From the NCBI GenBank assembly GCA_024409025.1, contig JAKSUM010000049.1:1-8077 (forward strand): 8,077 bases of DNA. Reading direction: 5' to 3'. The DNA comes from a bacterium. Its GTDB lineage: Bacteria; Vulcanimicrobiota; CADAWZ01. The translations under genes were made by a program, and so were the position numbers. Positions 2-8,057 of the stretch are shown in pieces; positions within the stretch are counted from its first letter, which is position 1, and each line of letters opens with the position of its first letter. Under the pieces are notes generated by a model, which was not told the origin of the DNA, ran no database searches, and was given only the letters and a program-made list of their open reading frames with translations.

Positions 2-1069
2 GTTTACGTTTTTCCTGTTCTTGATGATTCTATGATTTCAAGCTACAAGAAGCTTGATCCCAAGAAGCCCGTTGTCGAGTTCCCGATTAACGTGTGGATT
101 GGCTGGCTTCCGATCGTTGCGGCAAACCATGGCTGCAAGCCGAATGAGGAAAGCTATTTCTATAAAAATTACGGCTTCATGGTCAATATAACACTTATTG
201 ACGATCCTGTGTCCGCAAGAGATGCTTTTGCTTCAGGCAAGAGCCATGTGCTTTGGGGAACGCTTGACATAATGGCACTTTTCGCGCCTTCTCTTTCTGC
301 GGATGCGAGAACAGCCCCCAAGATTTATCAGATTGTTGACTGGAGCAACGGCGGTGACGGAATTGTTGCCAGAGACAACATAAAGTCCGTTAAAGACCTC
401 AAGGGAAAGACGATAGTTTACGCTCAGAATTCCCCAAGCCAGTACTATGCAAACACAATGCTTCTTAAGGCAGGAGTTCAGCCTGGCGAAGTTAACCATA
501 AGTTCACGGATACGCCTTTCTCTGCTGCTGCTGCTTTCGTTGCTTCCAACGGAAAGAAGGAACAGATTGACGCTGTCGTGTCATGGGCTCCGGACATTTA
601 CACTATTCCTGAAAAGGTTCCAGGAACTAAGCTTCTTTCAAGCACTCAGGATGACAACAAGGTTATTGCCGATACTTGGGCTGTAAGGGCAGATTTCGCA
701 AGGGACAATCCGAAGATCGTAAAGGGTCTTGTCGAAGGCATATTTGCAGGAATGGATATGCTTAATGACGCTTCCTATAAGAAGGAAGCCTGCAAGTGGC
801 TTGGCGAGCTTTACGGATACGGCGAAGACGAGATAACCGGAATGATTAACGATGCACATTCGACAAATTTTGCTGAAAACGCTTCGTTTTTCCTTAATGC
901 AGACAATCCTGCAAACTTTGCCAATACTTGGAAAAACATATGTTTCGTATATGGAGAGCTCGGCGTCATTGATGCTCCTATTCCTGTAGAAAAGGTTATG
1001 GATGCGTCAGTAATAAAGGAGCTCCAGAAGGAAGGCAAGTTTAAAGGCCATAAGGATACATATAAATAA
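2..1069 (+). CDS. ABC transporter solute-binding protein, NrtA/SsuA/TauA-like, 5'-truncated, without OmpA domain
   Basis: Periplasmic solute-binding protein of the nitrate/sulfonate/taurine class, cut by the left edge. The first ATG (32) is not a credible start. The frame is open to base 2, and the residues before it (FPVLDDS) align with IPQLDNS of the neighbouring paralogue, so the real N-terminus lies outside the window. From residue 1 at base 32, 345 residues align without gaps to residues 85-429 of the next gene, with 274 identities by my hand count (about 79%). Family-like segments are INVWIGWLP near the start, DWSNGGDGI, DLKGKTIVYAQ and DAVVSWAPDIY. It stops at HKDTYK, exactly where the paralogue continues into an OmpA domain; the bases after the stop show no OmpA remnant. 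Whether it has a signal peptide or a membrane anchor cannot be seen. It probably serves the same permease as the next gene. The substrate is unknown. Confidence 0.88.
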   Translation, partial: VYVFPVLDDSMISSYKKLDPKKPVVEFPINVWIGWLPIVAANHGCKPNEESYFYKNYGFMVNITLIDDPVSARDAFASGKSHVLWGTLDIMALFAPSLSADARTAPKIYQIVDWSNGGDGIVARDNIKSVKDLKGKTIVYAQNSPSQYYANTMLLKAGVQPGEVNHKFTDTPFSAAAAFVASNGKKEQIDAVVSWAPDIYTIPEKVPGTKLLSSTQDDNKVIADTWAVRADFARDNPKIVKGLVEGIFAGMDMLNDASYKKEACKWLGELYGYGEDEITGMINDAHSTNFAENASFFLNADNPANFANTWKNICFVYGELGVIDAPIPVEKVMDASVIKELQKEGKFKGHKDTYK

Positions 1070-1082
1070 CCTTGATTAAAGA

Positions 1083-1109
1083 GCCCGGCCAGAAGCTTTT
1101 CGGCCGGGC
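1083..1109 (+). terminator. GC-rich intergenic hairpin between the two binding-protein genes
   Basis: GCCCGGCC (1083-1090) pairs perfectly with GGCCGGGC (1102-1109). An inner GAA/TTC pairing is possible around a GCTT loop. The sequence after the stem is ATAAAATTAT, not a T-run, so a full intrinsic terminator is doubtful. It may instead stabilise the upstream mRNA end or attenuate transcription. The ribosome site of the next gene lies 16 nt downstream. Confidence 0.5.
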
Positions 1110-1138: not shown

Positions 1139-2887
1139 ATGTCTATGGGACACCGTCCGCAAGGCGGTCTTACTCCTTTTGCCAAGATTCTCATAGCAGG
1201 AATAATTATTGCTATTGGATATTTTGCTTGGAATGCGATTGGCAATAAGGCTGGCGGGCCTGCCGGAACCCAGTTTAAAAAGGTAGATATGTCAAAGATG
1301 ACTGCCGAGGCATCCGATACAAAGGGAATTACTACCGTTCAGGAATACAAATATGTTCCTCAGGAGAAGATCCCGCAGCTCGACAACTCTGTTGTCGCAA
1401 GCTATAAAAGGGTTGATCCTGAGAATCCTGTCGTTGAGTTTCCTATCAATGTCTGGATTGGATGGCTGCCTAGTGTTGCAGCAAACCATGGCTACAAGCC
1501 GAATGAGGAGAGCTACTTCTATAAAAAATATGGGTTTAAGGTTAACATAACGCTTATTGATGACCCTGTTTCCGCAAGAGACGCTTTTGCTTCGGGAAAG
1601 AGCCATGTGCTGTGGGGAACTCTTGACATTATGGCTCTCTTTGCTCCGACTCTTGTTTCTGATGCAAGGACTTCTCCGAGAATTTACCAGATTATAGACT
1701 GGAGTAACGGCGGAGACGGAATCGTTGTAAGGGACGACATAAAGTCCATTGCCGATCTTAAAGGCAAAACCATTGTTTATGCGCAGAATTCTGCCAGCCA
1801 GTATTTTATAAACAACCTTCTTCTCACATCAGGCATCCAGCCTAATGAGGTTACTCATAAATTTACAGACAGCCCGTTTTCCGCTGCTGCCGCTTTCGTT
1901 GCTTCCAACGGAAAGAAGGATCAGATAGATGCCGTAGTCTCATGGGCTCCGGACATCTACACCATCCCCGAGAAGGTTCCCGGAACAAAGCTTCTGGCAA
2001 GCACTAAGGATGCCAGCAAGACAATCGCTGACACTTGGGCTGTAAGGGCTGATTTCGCCAGAGATAACCCGAAGATCGTCAAAGGCCTTGTCGAAGGTAT
2101 ATTTGCCGGAATGGACATGCTCAAGGACGGTGCTTATAAAAACCAGGCCTGTAAATGGCTCGGAGATCTGTACGGCTATGATGAAAACGAGATCAAGGGC
2201 ATGCTTGAAGATGCCCATACGACTAATTTTGCAGAGAACAAGGACTGCTTCCTGAATGCCAATTCTCCGTCTAACTTCGAGAGAACTTGGAAAAACATAA
2301 ACTTTGTCTACAGAGAGCTCGGCCTCATTGATTCGCCGGTTCCTTTTGACAATGTTATGGATTTCTCCGTAATAAAGGCGCTTCAGGCTGAAGGCAAGTT
2401 CAAGGATCACAAGGATGAGTACAAGGCTAAATTTGTACCGTCCTCATTCTCAAAGCTTAAAGCAGAGGCTCCGATCCTCACTCAGACGATCAGAATCAAT
2501 TTCTATCCTAATTCATGGAATATTCTTGAGCCTCAGCATGACGAGGCAGGCAACAAGATAAAGGACACCTACTATGATCCATCAGCTCTTGCCAGCGTTG
2601 AGAAGGCTGCAAGGCTTGCAGGCCAGTTCGATTCCGCAAGAATAGCCATAGTAGGTCACTCTGACAGCTCCAAGAAGGGGCAGGTCAGGGATGAAACAGT
2701 TAAGACCCTCTCACTTAATAGGGCTAAGGCGGTTAAGGATATGCTTGTTGAAAAGTATAAATTCGATCCTAATAAATTCGTTGTTGAAGGAATGGGATGG
2801 GATGTTCCCTTCGATCCGGCAAATCCTTATGATCAGGCTAAAAACCGTAGGGTTGAGATAACTGTATATCAGCCTGAAGAAGAGTAA
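1139..2887 (+). CDS. Membrane-anchored ABC solute-binding protein fused to an OmpA peptidoglycan-binding domain
   Basis: A 582-residue three-part protein. Residues about 15-33 (AKILIAGIIIAIGYFAW) form one hydrophobic helix with no lipobox or obvious cleavage site, so it is probably an uncleaved inner-membrane anchor. A polar linker runs to about residue 95. Residues about 97-430 are a nitrate/sulfonate/taurine-type binding domain, paralogous to the upstream gene. Residues about 450-578 are an OmpA-like domain: GHSDS at 506-510, LSLNRAKAV at 524-532 and NRRVEITV at 569-576. The Asp509 and Arg528 positions correspond to those that hold diaminopimelate in known OmpA domains. The binding domain would therefore sit in the periplasm between membrane and cell wall, an arrangement like MotB but with a ligand-binding core. 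The genes after it encode a matching permease and ATPase. Databases sometimes call such fusions 'phosphate ABC transporter substrate-binding/OmpA family', but phosphate is not supported by anything visible here. Confidence 0.9.
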   Translation: MSMGHRPQGGLTPFAKILIAGIIIAIGYFAWNAIGNKAGGPAGTQFKKVDMSKMTAEASDTKGITTVQEYKYVPQEKIPQLDNSVVASYKRVDPENPVVEFPINVWIGWLPSVAANHGYKPNEESYFYKKYGFKVNITLIDDPVSARDAFASGKSHVLWGTLDIMALFAPTLVSDARTSPRIYQIIDWSNGGDGIVVRDDIKSIADLKGKTIVYAQNSASQYFINNLLLTSGIQPNEVTHKFTDSPFSAAAAFVASNGKKDQIDAVVSWAPDIYTIPEKVPGTKLLASTKDASKTIADTWAVRADFARDNPKIVKGLVEGIFAGMDMLKDGAYKNQACKWLGDLYGYDENEIKGMLEDAHTTNFAENKDCFLNANSPSNFERTWKNINFVYRELGLIDSPVPFDNVMDFSVIKALQAEGKFKDHKDEYKAKFVPSSFSKLKAEAPILTQTIRINFYPNSWNILEPQHDEAGNKIKDTYYDPSALASVEKAARLAGQFDSARIAIVGHSDSSKKGQVRDETVKTLSLNRAKAVKDMLVEKYKFDPNKFVVEGMGWDVPFDPANPYDQAKNRRVEITVYQPEEE

Positions 2888-2905
2888 TAATCCGATTTGA
2901 AAATG

Positions 2906-2947
2906 GCCGCCGCTTTGCGGGATCTCGTCCCGGGGAGTTGCGGCTTT
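2906..2947 (+). terminator. Intergenic hairpin cluster before the permease gene
   Basis: GCCGC (2906-2910) pairs with GCGGC (2940-2944), enclosing a second stem CGGGA (2918-2922) with TCCCG (2928-2932). CCGC (2910-2913) with GCGG (2917-2920) is an alternative small hairpin that excludes part of these. Only CTTTGCTTTTG follows, so termination would be partial at best. It is placed where binding-protein mRNA is often separated from lower-expressed permease mRNA. Confidence 0.4.
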
Positions 2948-2954
2948 GCTTTTG

Positions 2955-2961
2955 AAAGGAG
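2955..2961 (+). promoter_or_regulatory. Ribosome binding site of the permease gene
   Basis: AAAGGAG lies 6 nt before the ATG at 2968. It supports that start, and no earlier in-frame start has a comparable site. Confidence 0.75.
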
Positions 2962-2967
2962 TTTTTT

Positions 2968-3792
2968 ATGCAGAAGATGTTTAAGGACTTTTTTGGCATA
3001 AGGGATGAGGTGGAAGGTAAGCATGCCCTTATGTTTGCCCTTATTCCTTTGGCCTTGGTTTTTATTCTTTGGTTTATCGTCACATCCGGAGAGCGTTCAA
3101 GCAGGATAATGCCTGCTGCTATTCTCCCAAGCCCTATGGATCTCGTAAATGTGATACCAAAGCTTTTCTCTCCTGAGAAGAAGCTTGGCGAGGGCATATT
3201 CATGAGCATGCAGAGAATCGTTGTCGGTTTTAGCATAGCTGCTGTTGTTGCAGTGCCATTGGGAATTCTTATGGGTGCTTTTATAAGGATTGAAAAGATG
3301 TTTTCGACAGTCCTTCTTGTTGGAGCTTATCTTCCTATTCCTACAATTGTTCCCCTCACCATGGCATGGTGCGGAGTAGGCGAGGAGCAGAAGATATGCT
3401 TCCTTGCAATTGCCTCATTCGTATACCTGCTTCCGGCGGTAGTAAATGCTGTTAACGATGTTGACGACATATTTATCAATACGGGATATACTACTGGAGC
3501 AACCAAATGGCAGATTGTTACAAAGATAATAATTCCTGTTGCCGCGCCTAAGATTTTCGACGCTCTCAGGATGGGTTTTGGCGTCGGATTTACATGGATT
3601 ATTATGGCAGAGATGATTGGTGCTGATACTGGCATAGGATATCTTCTGAGGCAGGCGCAGTCGAGAGGCGGAATTGATAATACGCCGATGGTTTTCGCGC
3701 TTCTCATACTTATTATACTTATAGCGTTTGTAGTTGATTTTATCTGGAAATTCGCATATAATCAGATTTTCAGATACAAGGAGGGCAAGTAA
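2968..3792 (+). CDS. ABC transporter permease, TauC/SsuC-like
   Basis: Inner-membrane permease subunit of a nitrate/sulfonate/taurine-type importer, 274 residues, a usual length for the family. Hydrophobic segments lie at about 20-38, 84-105, 113-135, 143-162, 188-218 and 240-260, giving about six passes. The cytoplasmic coupling loop that contacts the ATPase is clear at about 170-200: NTGYTTGATKWQIVTKIIIP, followed by APKIFDALRMG. This matches the EAA-loop form of TauC/SsuC (A-x-T-x-GA-x-x-W, then P-x-I-x-x-xR). The start at 2968 has a good ribosome site. The stop codon directly abuts the ATG of the ATPase gene (TAAATG), so the two are translationally linked. Family membership is secure; the substrate is not determined. 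Confidence 0.93.
   Translation: MQKMFKDFFGIRDEVEGKHALMFALIPLALVFILWFIVTSGERSSRIMPAAILPSPMDLVNVIPKLFSPEKKLGEGIFMSMQRIVVGFSIAAVVAVPLGILMGAFIRIEKMFSTVLLVGAYLPIPTIVPLTMAWCGVGEEQKICFLAIASFVYLLPAVVNAVNDVDDIFINTGYTTGATKWQIVTKIIIPVAAPKIFDALRMGFGVGFTWIIMAEMIGADTGIGYLLRQAQSRGGIDNTPMVFALLILIILIAFVVDFIWKFAYNQIFRYKEGK
3778..3784 (+). promoter_or_regulatory. Ribosome binding site of the ATPase gene, inside the permease 3' end
   Basis: AAGGAGG overlaps the last permease codons, 8 nt before the ATG at 3793. The codons encode the lysine/glutamate-rich permease tail. Confidence 0.75.
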
Positions 3793-4683
3793 ATGGCGGT
3801 AATACAGGATAATCCTTCCATACATGACAAGACAGGCAATGTTCCGATCGTTACGTTTGAGGGCGTCTCCAAGACCTTTTATAAAGGCACTAAAAAGGAA
3901 TTTACTGCAATAAAGGATGTCTCCTTTGAGGTTGAGGACAGGGAAGACAAAGGACAGTTTATTGCGCTTCTGGGGCCTAGCGGCTGCGGAAAATCAACTG
4001 TAATTAATATAATAGCCGGCCTTACTCCACATTTCCCCCATACGACAGGCAAGGTACTGCTTCATGGAAAGCCTCTCGAAGGCCCTGGCAGGGACAGGGG
4101 CATGATATTTCAGAAATACAGCTCTTTTCCGCATCTGAATGTTCTTCAAAATGTGGCATTCGGAGTTATGCTTATGAGCCAGAATGACAGGGATGCTCTT
4201 CTTGAAAAAAAGAATGCTTCCTATGACGATGTTGCTGAATATGCAATGGAGTGGATTGATGCCGTTAAGCTTAAAGGCAATGAATATAAGTTCCCTCATG
4301 AGCTGAGTGGAGGCATGCAGCAGAGAGCGGCTATTGCAAGGACTCTTTCAATGAAGCCGAGGATTATTCTTATGGATGAGCCGTTCAGCGCTCTTGACGA
4401 GCCTACAAGGCTGTCCATGCAGGATCTTACGCTTAATCTATGGAGAAAGACTAAGTCAACAGTTTTTCTTGTGACCCACAGCATCTCTGAAGCGGTTTTT
4501 CTTGCTGACAGGATATGGATGTTCAGCCCGTCTCCTGGGACAATCAAGCTTGAGGTTGCCGATCTTCCTGAAATGGAAGGCGATGCATTGCTTGAGCAGG
4601 AAAAGAGCGTTTTTAAAGAGAATGTATTGATGATTACAGAAGCATTCCAGAAAATTACAAAAGTCAGAGAGCCTTTTTCATGA
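3793..4683 (+). CDS. ABC transporter ATP-binding protein, TauB/SsuB-like
   Basis: Cytoplasmic ATPase that powers the permease encoded just before it. All nucleotide-binding motifs are intact in 296 residues: Walker [10 protein letters not shown] at 61-69, Q-loop glutamine 107 in [10 protein letters not shown], signature LSGGMQQR at 171-178, Walker B IILMDEP at 191-197, D-loop SALD at 199-202 and switch histidine 229 in VTHS. The line SALDEPTR is the form seen in the nitrate/sulfonate/taurine ATPases (usually SALDxxTR). The protein is somewhat longer than many TauB/SsuB proteins, with an extended N-terminus (about 20 residues before the first strand) and an insert around 125-150 ([16 protein letters not shown]). 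The C-terminal tail from about 255 is acidic then helical, of unknown use. Its last codons overlap the next gene by 4 nt (ATGA). Confidence 0.95.
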
Positions 4684-5528
4684 ACAAGATAACAGTTTGG
4701 GACAGAGTTAAAGATGCCTTTTGGCTTAAAATATTTGGTCTTCCCTTGAACGCATGTGCCGTTGCAACATTATGCCTTTTCGGCTTCAGCGATCCAAGAA
4801 TGTGGATTGTTGCGGGAGTCGGAGAGTCTCTGTACCTTTTAGCAATGACAGGATCAGGAATTGTACATAAATCTCTTATGGACAAGGAAGCTCAGAAAAA
4901 ATTAAAAGAATGGGAACTCAGAAAAAAGAAAATTCTTGATAAGATATCCCCTGTAGGGAGAAAGAGATTTTATCAGCTTGAGACCTTGGGGCAGTCCATC
5001 ACTTCAATGACTGTAAACGCAAAGAAGGAAGGTCTTCCTGTCGATATGGCAAAGCTTAAAACAGTTTCTCAGCTTCTTTGGCTGGCCCTTAAGCTTCTTG
5101 CTTCCAGAGAGATTATGGTGCAGAATATTAAGGGAAATTCAAAAGACGCTCTTGAGATTAAGATTGCGAACCTTAAAAAGAGCAGGGATTCGGAGCAGAA
5201 CGAAAAGCTTAAAGCTATGTTTGATTCCACTCTCGAAACAATGGAAAAAAGGCTTCGCACCTATGATGACGTCAATGTCAAAATAAAGGAGATCGATCTT
5301 AATCTGCTTAGAATAGAAGAGCAGCTTCCCCTTCTGAGAAATGTTGCGGCACTTGAAGTACAGAACGGCAAGAGCAGCGTTACTCAGCAGATTGACAATG
5401 CGCAGTCTGCTATTGACGACACTAATGAATGGATGATGTCTGCAAAGGATCTGTTCTCTTCGCTTGATGATGATCTTGCAGAGACGCCTCCTGATGACGT
5501 GTTTATCGGAATCAGCGAAAAATTTTAA
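4680..5528 (+). CDS. Uncharacterised membrane protein with two TM segments and a long charged helical region
   Basis: I do not recognise this 282-residue protein. After a short amphipathic N-terminus ([14 protein letters not shown]) it has two hydrophobic segments at about 21-36 and 41-60, separated by SDPR, which would form a tight hairpin in the inner membrane. Everything after residue 64 is polar and looks mostly helical: a Lys/Glu-rich stretch at about 68-90, then probable coiled coils near 160-215 ([20 protein letters not shown]) and 218-240, and an acidic tail ([14 protein letters not shown]). No enzyme motif is visible. Its ATGA overlap with the ATPase gene, and the lack of a strong ribosome site of its own, imply translational coupling and a stoichiometric role near the transporter. 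It could be a scaffold or adaptor linking the membrane complex to the AAA+ protein downstream. A loose resemblance in layout to XpaC-type proteins of tellurite-resistance-like operons is only a guess. Confidence 0.8.
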
Positions 5529-5542
5529 TAATTAAAGAGATA

Positions 5543-5587
5543 ATACCGCAGGCAGTATAGCTTTATATTCAGGCCTGCGGTATTTTT
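5543..5587 (+). terminator. Intrinsic terminator inside the gene cluster
   Basis: ATACCGCAGGC (5543-5553) pairs perfectly with GCCTGCGGTAT (5573-5583), an 11-bp stem with a 19-nt loop, followed by TTTTT (5583-5587). This is the best terminator in the window. The start codon of the next gene is only 19 nt after the T-run, too little room for a promoter, so the downstream genes are probably reached by read-through or anti-termination. Confidence 0.8.
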
Positions 5588-5596
5588 ATAAATAAT

Positions 5597-5601
5597 GGAG
5601 G
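5597..5601 (+). promoter_or_regulatory. Ribosome binding site that decides the start of the AAA+ gene
   Basis: GGAGG is 5 nt before the ATG at 5607. An in-frame ATG at 5595 overlaps this site and has no ribosome site of its own, so 5607 (protein start MAVAASLPEW) is preferred over MEVFMAVAAS. Confidence 0.75.
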
Positions 5602-5606
5602 TTTTT

Positions 5607-7388
5607 ATGGCAGTCGCAGCTTCGCTTCCCGAATGGGCAAAAAAAATGCAGCAGTTTTTTGTTGCAGGCACTACTTCCCAGTTTATTCTTTATGGTAATG
5701 TGTTTGATTATATATCCTCATTCAATGGTGAGGTGAGAGAGTTCGTTTCTCTTAGGAAGTATCTTGAGGATGTCATGTTTGCCCCGTTCGAGGTTGTTAT
5801 TTTTTATGACAGGGGCAAGGGTATAAGGGTAAGGAAAGGGCAGGATGAATTCCGCAAGTTCCTTTCGGGCTATGACAGCTTTAACAACACCAATTATGCA
5901 ACCTTCATGGGAGCTCTTCCGAGAGATGCCAAGAGATGCGTGGATTTGATTGACAGGTTCCTCCAGTACTCTCTCCAGAGAATAAGGGTTTCAGAGACGG
6001 AAAGGGATGCTGACGGAAGGCTTAAGAGATATTCATGCCCGATAAAGGTTGCCGTTGTCATCGATTATGCCCAGTACGTTGTTCCAAGGGGAGAGCTCAC
6101 TCAGATGCTTGGAGATTCCGGAGAGGTCCTGATTAAAATAATAGACTGGGCATCGAATCCGGCAATAAGAAACGCAAGCATTGCGACATGTCTTATAACG
6201 GAAAATCTTCAGGAGCTTAATTCGCTGTTAGTGCAGAATCCGTATAACTCGAAGATAAAGATTCCTATGCCTGACGAGGCTGAGCTTGCTGATTTCTGCA
6301 AGTATCTTTCAGAGAAGATTAAGGATTTCTCTGAATATTGCAGGATTGAGCTTCCGCAGCTTGCTTCAGGGATGCTTGGACTTACAAAAGCCGGTGTAAA
6401 TTCAATAATATCATTTGCCGTAAGCAATAAAGAGGAACTGTCACGCAGGATTCTTGCCAAAAACAAGAAGGAGTTTATTGAGAAGGAATGCAACGATCTT
6501 CTCGAATTTATAGAGGCTCCGTTTAATCTGGACATGGTTGCTGGCCATAAGGCTGCAAAAAAGTGGCTTAAAGATGATGCCGAACTTATAAAAATGGGAA
6601 AGACAAGATCTATTCCTATGGGGTATCTGCTTACTGGCGGCATAGGCACTGGTAAGACCTTCCTTGCAAACTGCTGGGCCGGAGAGCTTGGTATTCCGTT
6701 TGTTAAATTTAAAAATTTCAGGGACAAGTGGCAAGGAGCAACAGAGGGTAATCTTGAAAAGATATTTAATGTTCTTGATGCTCTTGGACAGGTGATTGTC
6801 TTTATTGATGAGGCGGATCAGTCTACAGGAAAACGCGATGGGGGCAGTGGGGATTCCGGAGTATCCGGAAGAGTGTATTCGATGCTTGCCCAGAAAATGA
6901 GCGATACGAAGAACAGGGGAAAAATTATATGGATTCTCGCCACTTCAAGACCCGATCTTCTTGAGGTTGACCTTAAGAGACAGGGCAGGCTTGACGTCCA
7001 TATACCTCTTTTCGCTCCTCAGACGGACGAGGACAGGAACGAGCTTTTCAGGGTTGTGGCTAAGAAGACGGGATCTGAAATACCTGCGGGCAAGCTTCCT
7101 AAGATTCCTGAGGATATTGAGCTTGGAGGAAATGAGATGGAGGCTCTTCTTGTAAGGGCACACAGGATTTTCGACCTTCAGAAATCAAAGAAGAGCATCG
7201 CTCTGATAGTAAAGGAGCTTCTAAAGGATTTTCGTCCCTCCGCACATACGGCGGCGCTTGAATACATGGATCTTATTGCTGTCAAGGAATGCACTGACTC
7301 TGTGTTCCTGCCTGAAAAGTATAAGGACATTTCTCAGGAAGAGCTTGACAGCAGGCTTGAGATATTAAAGCATAGAATGGAAAGGTGA
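5607..7388 (+). CDS. AAA+ ATPase with a degenerate N-terminal AAA-like module
   Basis: A 593-residue cytoplasmic protein with no signal or membrane segment. The C-terminal half is an active-looking AAA+ domain. Walker A is GGIGTGKT at 344-351 (Lys350), Walker B is IVFIDEAD at 397-404 with catalytic Glu402, and the sensor-1 strand is ILATSRPD at 443-450, where Ser447 stands in for the usual Asn. Arginine-finger candidates Arg458 and Arg461 lie in LKRQGRLD, and the lid helix contains GGNEMEALLVRAH. The first ~240 residues also look AAA-like but lack a P-loop: FILYGNVFDYI, a Walker-B-like VVIDYAQYV (Asp153) and a sensor-1-like ATCLITENLQELN leading to IKIPMPDEAEL. The overall plan, dead module then live module, recalls Ycf46-like AAA proteins, but I would not assign it there. 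Likely forms a ring that remodels or unfolds a partner; the flanking helical proteins are the obvious candidates. Starting at 5595 would add only four residues. Confidence 0.9.
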   Translation: MAVAASLPEWAKKMQQFFVAGTTSQFILYGNVFDYISSFNGEVREFVSLRKYLEDVMFAPFEVVIFYDRGKGIRVRKGQDEFRKFLSGYDSFNNTNYATFMGALPRDAKRCVDLIDRFLQYSLQRIRVSETERDADGRLKRYSCPIKVAVVIDYAQYVVPRGELTQMLGDSGEVLIKIIDWASNPAIRNASIATCLITENLQELNSLLVQNPYNSKIKIPMPDEAELADFCKYLSEKIKDFSEYCRIELPQLASGMLGLTKAGVNSIISFAVSNKEELSRRILAKNKKEFIEKECNDLLEFIEAPFNLDMVAGHKAAKKWLKDDAELIKMGKTRSIPMGYLLTGGIGTGKTFLANCWAGELGIPFVKFKNFRDKWQGATEGNLEKIFNVLDALGQVIVFIDEADQSTGKRDGGSGDSGVSGRVYSMLAQKMSDTKNRGKIIWILATSRPDLLEVDLKRQGRLDVHIPLFAPQTDEDRNELFRVVAKKTGSEIPAGKLPKIPEDIELGGNEMEALLVRAHRIFDLQKSKKSIALIVKELLKDFRPSAHTAALEYMDLIAVKECTDSVFLPEKYKDISQEELDSRLEILKHRMER

Positions 7389-7389
7389 T
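7383..7389 (+). promoter_or_regulatory. Ribosome binding site of the last + strand gene, overlapping the AAA+ stop
   Basis: AGGTGAT, part of the extended complement to the 16S rRNA 3' end, spans the TGA stop of the AAA+ gene and lies 4 nt before the ATG at 7394. It supports 7394 over the ATG at 7407, which has no such site. Confidence 0.6.
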
Positions 7390-7393
7390 TATC

Positions 7394-8057
7394 ATGGCAG
7401 AAAACAATGAAAACTCAGCTGAGCCTAAGAAAAAAGGCGGATTTAGGATTCCGTTTCTTAATTTCGGCAACCTGTTTGCCGGAAAGAAGCAGGAGGAGCC
7501 TTCTGAGGCGGAAGTCCGATGAGGAAGAAAAACCTGCTTCCGTGAAGAAGGTTGTGTCTTTTGATATGCTTAAGCGAATAATGAGCAATCAGGACTATAA
7601 TTATGAAGAAAATGTTGAGCCTGGAAATGAAGTAAAGACCTTTGAAGAGATATTTAAGATAACCAAAATACCTACCAAGGGCCCAAGTATAGACAAGATT
7701 GTTGAATATCTTGATTCTGATTTCATCAGAGGTATTCCTGATATGAAATCCAAGAGTGCGGAGATTCTTAAGAAAATCGCCATGGACAATATAAGCAAGC
7801 AGGACCTTTTTGATGATGCAATAAGAAAAGACAAGGCTCTGGACACATATGAGGACTTCATTGTCTCACGAATGAAAAAATTCTATAAGAAGACAGTCGA
7901 AGAGATGAATGCCCTTAAAAAAGAGCTTGAAGAGAAGAATGCCGCTTATCAGAAGGACTGCATCGGCACCGCAACGGTAAGATATGTCTATCTCGTCTTC
8001 CTCAAGCAGGAAGTCCTTTCTAAGGACAGGAACATCTGTAACTGCAGCGCATACTGA
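7394..8057 (+). CDS. Uncharacterised helical protein, frame broken near 7515 and 3' end replaced by antisense trpC
   Basis: I do not recognise this gene. Translation from 7394 gives MAENNENSAEPKKKGGF, RIPFLNFGNLFAGKKQ, then an acidic linker EEPSEAEVR and a TGA at 7520-7522. The same kind of acidic linker continues one frame over as SDEEEKPASVKKVVSF, then a charged, mostly helical body: TFEEIFKITKIPTKG, a middle around SDFIRGIPDMKSKSAEILKK and a coiled-coil end near MKKFYKKTVEEMNALKKELEEK. The two halves need a one-base skip between about 7505 and 7519; removing one base there gives a seamless SEAESDEEEKPAS. In the downstream frame an ATG at 7407 exists, but the peptide before ~7515 looks non-natural. 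After about 7940-7958 the reading frame only mirrors the opposite-strand trpC, so the natural C-terminus is missing. It lies 5 nt after the AAA+ gene, so it may be that ATPase's partner. The true protein probably covers 7394 to about 7945. Confidence 0.6.
7505..7522 (+). other. Frameshift site in the last + strand gene
   Basis: The upstream frame reads GAG GCG GAA GTC CGA TGA, while the downstream frame reads TCC GAT GAG GAA GAA. A single extra base in this stretch would explain the break. It lies in a low-complexity acidic linker with no long homopolymer. Sequencing error, real mutation or +1 recoding are all possible; error or mutation is more likely. Confidence 0.65.
7935..7958. other. Breakpoint joining the helical + strand gene to reversed trpC
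   Basis: Left of this interval the + strand reads as a natural coiled coil (ELEEKNAA); right of it the minus strand reads as conserved TrpC. Each gene loses its remainder here, so neither can be complete. I see no insertion-sequence end, target repeat or attachment-like site at the join. The exact base cannot be fixed without an intact copy of either gene. Confidence 0.65.

Follow-up and report, generated by a model that had tools for sequence, protein, structure and literature searches.

A PspA-linked AAA+ ATPase cluster with an OmpA-fused ABC importer: a possible bacterial counterpart of ESCRT-III and Vps4

The DNA considered here, referred to below as the window, is one whole contig of 8077 bases from a 1.46-Mb metagenome-derived genome that is 69% complete. 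It carries part of a gene system comprising an ATP-binding cassette (ABC) importer whose solute-binding protein is fused to an OmpA domain (SBP-OmpA), a coiled-coil protein (CC282) and an AAA+ ATPase. Six genes are recognisable, all on the + strand, and a seventh, beginning at 7394, is broken. Along the strand the genes are separated by 69, 80, 0, -4 and 78 bases, with 5 bases before the last. The contig begins inside the cluster and lacks the site at which pspA is found in relatives. Because of this, PspA was invisible to the preliminary description, an earlier reading of the same DNA. The features of the window are:

2..1069, + strand: NMT1-type binding protein, the first of two, without an OmpA domain and truncated at its 5' end by the contig start (PF09084, 1e-8)
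1083..1109, + strand: hairpin between the two binding-protein genes (-20.7 kcal/mol, z -4.25)
1139..2887, + strand: SBP-OmpA, with an N-terminal hydrophobic anchor (residues 8-36), an NMT1-type solute-binding domain and a C-terminal OmpA domain
2968..3792, + strand: ABC importer permease (BPD_transp_1, PF00528, 2e-20; six hydrophobic stretches)
3793..4683, + strand: ABC importer ATPase (PF00005, 1e-28)
4680..5528, + strand: coiled-coil protein CC282, 282 residues, its gene overlapping the ATPase gene by ATGA
5542..5584, + strand: terminator-like hairpin in the gap from the coiled-coil to the AAA+ gene (-22.7 kcal/mol, z -5.42, U run at its end)
5607..7388, + strand: AAA+ ATPase, with a predicted degenerate AAA module lacking Walker A, followed by a classical one that has Walker A and B
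7394..7958, + strand: gene of a small helical protein, disrupted in frame before 7522 and incomplete at the contig end
7935..8072, - strand: trpC fragment, outside the system (PF00218, 1.3e-7)

The preliminary description had placed the binding protein/OmpA, permease, ATPase, CC282 and AAA+ genes on one strand, with CC282 coupled to the transporter by an ATGA overlap. The domains, the + strand and the overlap all hold. SBP-OmpA scores 5e-9 for NMT1 and 1e-9 for OmpA; among structures in the PDB it matches a taurine-binding protein (2e-6) and the OmpA domain of Omp38 (2e-7). The importer resembles TauABC, NrtABC and SsuABC in the families of its NMT1-type binding protein, permease and ATPase. 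It differs from them in that the binding protein is anchored and OmpA-fused, and in that the listed matches fall below the NCBIfam cut-offs, the best scores being 75.1 bits against 333.9 for the binding protein, 126.4 against 295 for the permease and 184.9 against 360 for the ATPase. The two binding-protein genes share 77% DNA identity over their aligned part. A tandem of a binding protein and an SBP-OmpA (29-32% identity) that resembles the window's two copies occurs at locus L073 (G007:C195), in a genome without this AAA+.

What kind of ATPase accompanies the importer? PF00004 is found at 2e-26 in the C-terminal half of the AAA+ protein. Walker A is present in the C half of 55/55 AAA+ sequences and in the N half of 0/55. 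The two-module architecture claimed earlier stands: a fold model with a predicted local distance difference test (pLDDT) score of 90 aligns with Rix7 and Cdc48/p97 in its N and C halves alike, and the N half is predicted to be a second, degenerate AAA module. The most likely start is 5607, preferred because the alternative ATG at 5595 overlaps GGAGG; it gives 593 amino acids, the length of the database copy P0001. The family is large, with 7871 of the 7999 scored candidates at E <= 1e-3. An IetA-like phage-defence ATPase has next to no probability: the PADLOC IetA models do match the protein (best 3.5e-14), but only in its C-terminal AAA half, the NCBIfam IteA model scores 31.8 bits where 510 are required, and phage and plasmid collections hold no AAA+ match at E 1e-60. 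The half-only matches and the empty phage and plasmid search speak against a defence or mobile-element reading. A lead toward Ycf46 and bicarbonate yielded nothing relevant.

CC282 was thought to span the membrane twice. Hydropathy gives one strong hydrophobic segment, at residues 13-37; only a low-confidence fold model (pLDDT 69) folds helices 23-35 and 40-57 into a hairpin, perhaps one set in the membrane. Relatives of CC282 occur in planctomycetal, acidobacterial and verrucomicrobial genomes. A hidden Markov model (HMM) built from the other CC282 proteins detects the acidobacterial members among 12357 open reading frames (ORFs) with E-values of 5e-17 to 4e-15, and hhalign joins the two sets at 97%; CC282 is thus one family across phyla. 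The hhalign probability for CC282 against the cluster's PspAs is 1%.

The system is real and conserved, and it has already been described from genomes. The preliminary description had called it undescribed; an operon type consisting of PspA/Snf7 with a transmembrane segment, a two-AAA ATPase, an ABC ATPase, a permease and a PBPB-OmpA protein is reported by Ravi et al. (2024, mSystems, PMC11237479), who likewise suggest that ATP drives membrane remodelling in connection with transport. The window belongs to this kind of operon. It shares the ABC ATPase, the permease and the solute-binding/OmpA protein, as well as two AAA+ domains (by predicted fold) of which the N-terminal copy is inactive (Walker A lost). 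PspA lies upstream in the relatives, and the window's contig starts past that site. Ravi et al. also list 'Snf7 with TM'; CC282, a candidate counterpart, has one hydrophobic segment and a weakly modelled fold. The portion of their text available to us contains neither a PspA tail motif nor counts for the operon type.

How constant is the association? Among the 149 genomes of the window's phylum, the AAA+ ATPase, called at E <= 1e-60, is present in 20. PspA, called by PF04012 in three relatives and by a custom HMM in the others, shares the AAA+ cluster in 12 of these 20. It adjoins SBP-OmpA on a contig separate from AAA+ in G036 and G048, and lies away from the AAA+ cluster in G018, G032, G038, G044 and G050. 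Six genomes (G001, G004, G028, G030, G034 and G040) keep, in full or nearly so, the order PspA, SBP-OmpA, permease, ATPase, CC282, AAA+, small helical gene, as expected of the conserved system that the earlier reading had supposed. G002 and G003, which belong to the same family as the window, retain PspA, CC282 and AAA+ as well as the helical gene but have no SBP-OmpA match, while G026, G046 and two verrucomicrobial loci hold PspA and AAA+ only.

The genes seldom occur without the ATPase. SBP-OmpA at 56% identity or more is found in 9/149 genomes of the phylum, with AAA+ in 9/9, and CC282 at E <= 1e-8 in 10/149, with AAA+ in 10/10; weaker CC282 relatives adjoin PspA and AAA+ in G010 and G013. 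Hypergeometric probabilities of co-occurrence with AAA+ are 2e-9 for SBP-OmpA and 2e-10 for CC282, naive values that ignore kinship. Among the 17 AAA+ genomes of loci L050-L053 and L055-L067, six have SBP-OmpA matches, three at 53-63% identity and three at 28-31%. In five acidobacterial loci (L055, L057-L060) the order is PspA, CC282, a TonB_C-type protein, AAA+; TonB_C was identified by Pfam in L057 (L057:8757-9812) and by a custom HMM in the other four.

Might the ATPase remodel or assemble the ABC importer itself, with CC282 as the bridge, as first suggested? The same-strand order, the ATGA coupling to the CC282 gene and the confinement of close SBP-OmpA to AAA+ genomes within the phylum would fit. 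Against this, 11 of the 20 AAA+ genomes have no SBP-OmpA match (completeness 61% and 82%, the rest at least 89%), and neither do the genomes of the five acidobacterial loci; we regard the idea as improbable. AAA+ and CC282 genes without SBP-OmpA, an arrangement that the preliminary description had itself counted against its proposal, do occur in G002, G003 and the five acidobacterial loci. The reverse, close SBP-OmpA without AAA+, is seen in 0/149 genomes of the phylum, the exception being the 29-32% relative in G007, where no AAA+ is called at E <= 1e-60; in the planctomycetal sample described below, G296 has SBP-OmpA and AAA+ was not found. The constant partner of the AAA+ protein is PspA, not the importer. 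We conclude that the constant core is PspA, CC282 and AAA+, with an exchangeable periplasmic partner, and that the importer is an add-on.

The two sides of the cluster are not always contiguous. In G159 one contig carries SBP-OmpA, permease, ATPase and CC282, and a different one PspA with AAA+. G160 has its SBP-OmpA, permease and ATPase, along with a questionable CC282-like gene, away from AAA+. In G151 and G152 (L070, L071) SBP-OmpA sits with a CC282 relative, separately from PspA and AAA+. Importer-side genes and AAA+ are also on separate contigs in G183, G283, G299, G314 and G343. These separations, together with the hairpin between the CC282 and AAA+ genes, are what independent units that merely share a neighbourhood would produce. 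The split genomes nevertheless keep both sides, G007 and G296 being the exceptions, and independence is very unlikely. The modules can separate while both stay in the genome, and the transport part is not constant.

Is there anything in PspA itself that marks its association with the ATPase? In AAA+-linked PspAs a variable linker, in many cases rich in proline/alanine, leads to [KR]x[MLI]G at the C-terminal end. In the window's phylum this pattern occurs within the last 45 residues of 14/14 system PspAs. It is absent from the printed tails of eight non-system PspAs, namely extra copies in G001, G002, G003 and G050 and those of genomes G015, G072, G092 and G119. One PspA in each of G018, G038, G044 and G050 ends PRELGGG, and the single PspA of G032 ends PRELGPG.

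A second sample consisted of 246 genomes from the phylum of G149 (locus L050, Planctomycetota), 60 of them with PspA. Here a PspA was counted as linked when AAA+ or SBP-OmpA lay within about 5 kb, and 77 PspA regions were usable. The motif is present in 25/25 linked against 12/52 other PspAs (Fisher 1.6e-11) and, by genome, in 28/28 with AAA+ against 8/32 without (3.8e-10). Of the 25 linked tails, 21 begin the motif with K, 20 have M or L at its third position, and 16 have a P directly after it. Seven AAA+ genomes have several PspAs: in six the motif is on the system-linked copy only, the remaining copies terminating in a helix of EL..LK type, and in the seventh, G241, both PspAs carry it. Five of the 12 unlinked matches sit in four genomes with AAA+ elsewhere (G174, G241, G329, G356), one is a true tail in G352, where AAA+ was not found, and six, most of them resembling LKRELG, fall within or next to the final helix; these six are by our reading chance matches, a judgement made after the data were seen. 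Shuffled tails gave 0.9/25 expected against 24 observed for linked PspAs and 2.0/52 against 13 for unlinked ones.

The best 120 database proteins of this PspA clade, many of them acidobacterial near-relatives, carry the motif in 114 cases, against 4.1 when shuffled. In a tree of 89 PspAs, 49 of the 52 motif rows fall in one clade (SH-aLRT 97), which also holds two motif-less rows. Repeated independent gain of the motif found no support; branches with good support yielded just two independent pairs. Since the motif clade is nearly single, the correlation is no evidence of repeated co-evolution. The tail motif is a new element of this analysis: neither it, nor counts of core against add-on, nor the TonB_C variant was found in the published text searched. 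Two further tails may be recorded. A PspA of this clade whose source is named Ahniella affigens and carries no MAG tag (P0244) ends ARNMGK, and at L061:8947-9741 the PspA frame breaks before the tail, with KTMGP in the overlapping frame L061:9426-9731.

What might such a tail do? PspA is a member of the ESCRT-III superfamily and polymerises on membranes, and Vps4 removes and unfolds ESCRT-III subunits, to which it is recruited via its MIT domain, according to two papers (PMC11746142 and PMC8281802 for PspA, the former also for Vps4). The cluster is like ESCRT-III/Vps4 (Cdv in archaea) in placing a polymer-forming protein of the ESCRT-III superfamily next to a classical AAA ATPase with Walker A and B, in that the C-module model aligns with Vps4, and in the conserved C-terminal motif on the polymer protein. 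The ESCRT-III motifs bound by the Vps4 MIT domain are likewise C-terminal. In contrast to Vps4, the window's AAA+ protein has no MIT domain (Pfam to E 1), and its modelled N half is matched by the first AAA module of Rix7/p97; the PspA tail motif is also unlike the familiar MIT-interacting motif (MIM) sequences. The Psp response of E. coli (PspF-PspABC) is alike in bringing PspA together with an AAA+ protein. There, however, PspF is an NtrC-type transcription activator, according to PMC11237479, whereas the ATPase here is a classical AAA protein (PF00004).

We favour the reading that the window holds a PspA-linked AAA+ machine with an importer, and put its probability at about 0.6. By analogy with Vps4, the K-x-M/L-G-P tail of PspA would be the handle gripped by the AAA+ protein, perhaps by its degenerate N-module, and the ATPase would extract PspA from membrane polymers. 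CC282 could be the membrane anchor or adaptor for the assembly. The importer, tied to the wall through OmpA, might position the machine or report solute or wall state to it. The fuller proposal, which we offer tentatively and at somewhat less than even odds, is a bacterial counterpart of ESCRT-III/Vps4: a PspA clade of at least four phyla whose C-terminal recruitment tag is recognised by its own double-module AAA+ protein, tied in many species to the wall and to solute uptake by an OmpA-fused ABC importer. No experiment on this system was found in the parts of the literature searched. The dedicated AAA+ partner and the short conserved tail make AAA+-tail binding and PspA polymer disassembly directly testable, and a link to the importer would connect membrane repair to nutrient or cell-wall state.

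Several observations weigh against the favoured reading. The window's own 69% complete genome has no PspA above the cut-off. In G010 and G013 the match falls inside the final helix, the tail itself being KTMEP, which reduces the motif to 12/14 by inspection. G018, G038, G044 and G050 each have another PspA with a TRPLQI-like end and no motif, and in genus g17 AAA+ is not near pspA. G296 and G352 have motif tails and no AAA+ was found in them, perhaps through genome incompleteness. From the tree, the motif is retained within a PspA clade that accompanies AAA+, and the two may simply be inherited together. Finally, among distant relatives, no permease or ATPase of this type was found beside SBP-OmpA within 13.5-15 kb at L070 and L071, nor any beside the tandem binding proteins in the 7.5 kb of L073 (G007). 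Transport, then, need not belong to the function, and a rule that permease and ATPase always stand beside SBP-OmpA is not upheld at these three loci.

If transport is dispensable, could SBP-OmpA be a sensor? It would read solute or wall state and signal via the permease and ATPase or via CC282 to PspA and AAA+, in a variant of the envelope-stress response. Such a role would suit a binding protein that is anchored and OmpA-fused, the TonB_C-type protein encoded between CC282 and AAA+ in the five acidobacterial loci, and the SBP-OmpA genes that lie by a CC282 relative (L070, L071) or in tandem (L073) without permease or ATPase in the stretches covered. Close members, on the other hand, keep the permease and ATPase families, beside SBP-OmpA wherever the contig suffices (the window, G001, G004, G028, G030, G034, G040). 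We consider a sensor in place of an importer unlikely, and retain the PspA-linked machine with an importer.

Two features of the window bear on its expression and its integrity. With a strong U-run hairpin between the CC282 and AAA+ genes, a single transcript is not certain; the hairpin at 5542-5584, which a simpler terminator scan did not list, could reduce transcriptional read-through into the AAA+ gene. The last gene was described earlier as encoding a helical protein. Its start is present and its frame is not intact: the frame from ATG 7394 meets a TGA at 7520-7522, and homology to relatives resumes in another frame, from either an assembly error or a pseudogene. In G001, a genome of the same family, an HD-domain gene (PF01966, PF19276; L024:332-1654) follows the small helical gene. 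For this reason the last 120-140 bases of the contig, with the trpC piece, are probably an assembly misjoin. An ORF of 439 amino acids at L027:6576-7895 occupies the position matching that of the HD-domain gene of L024.

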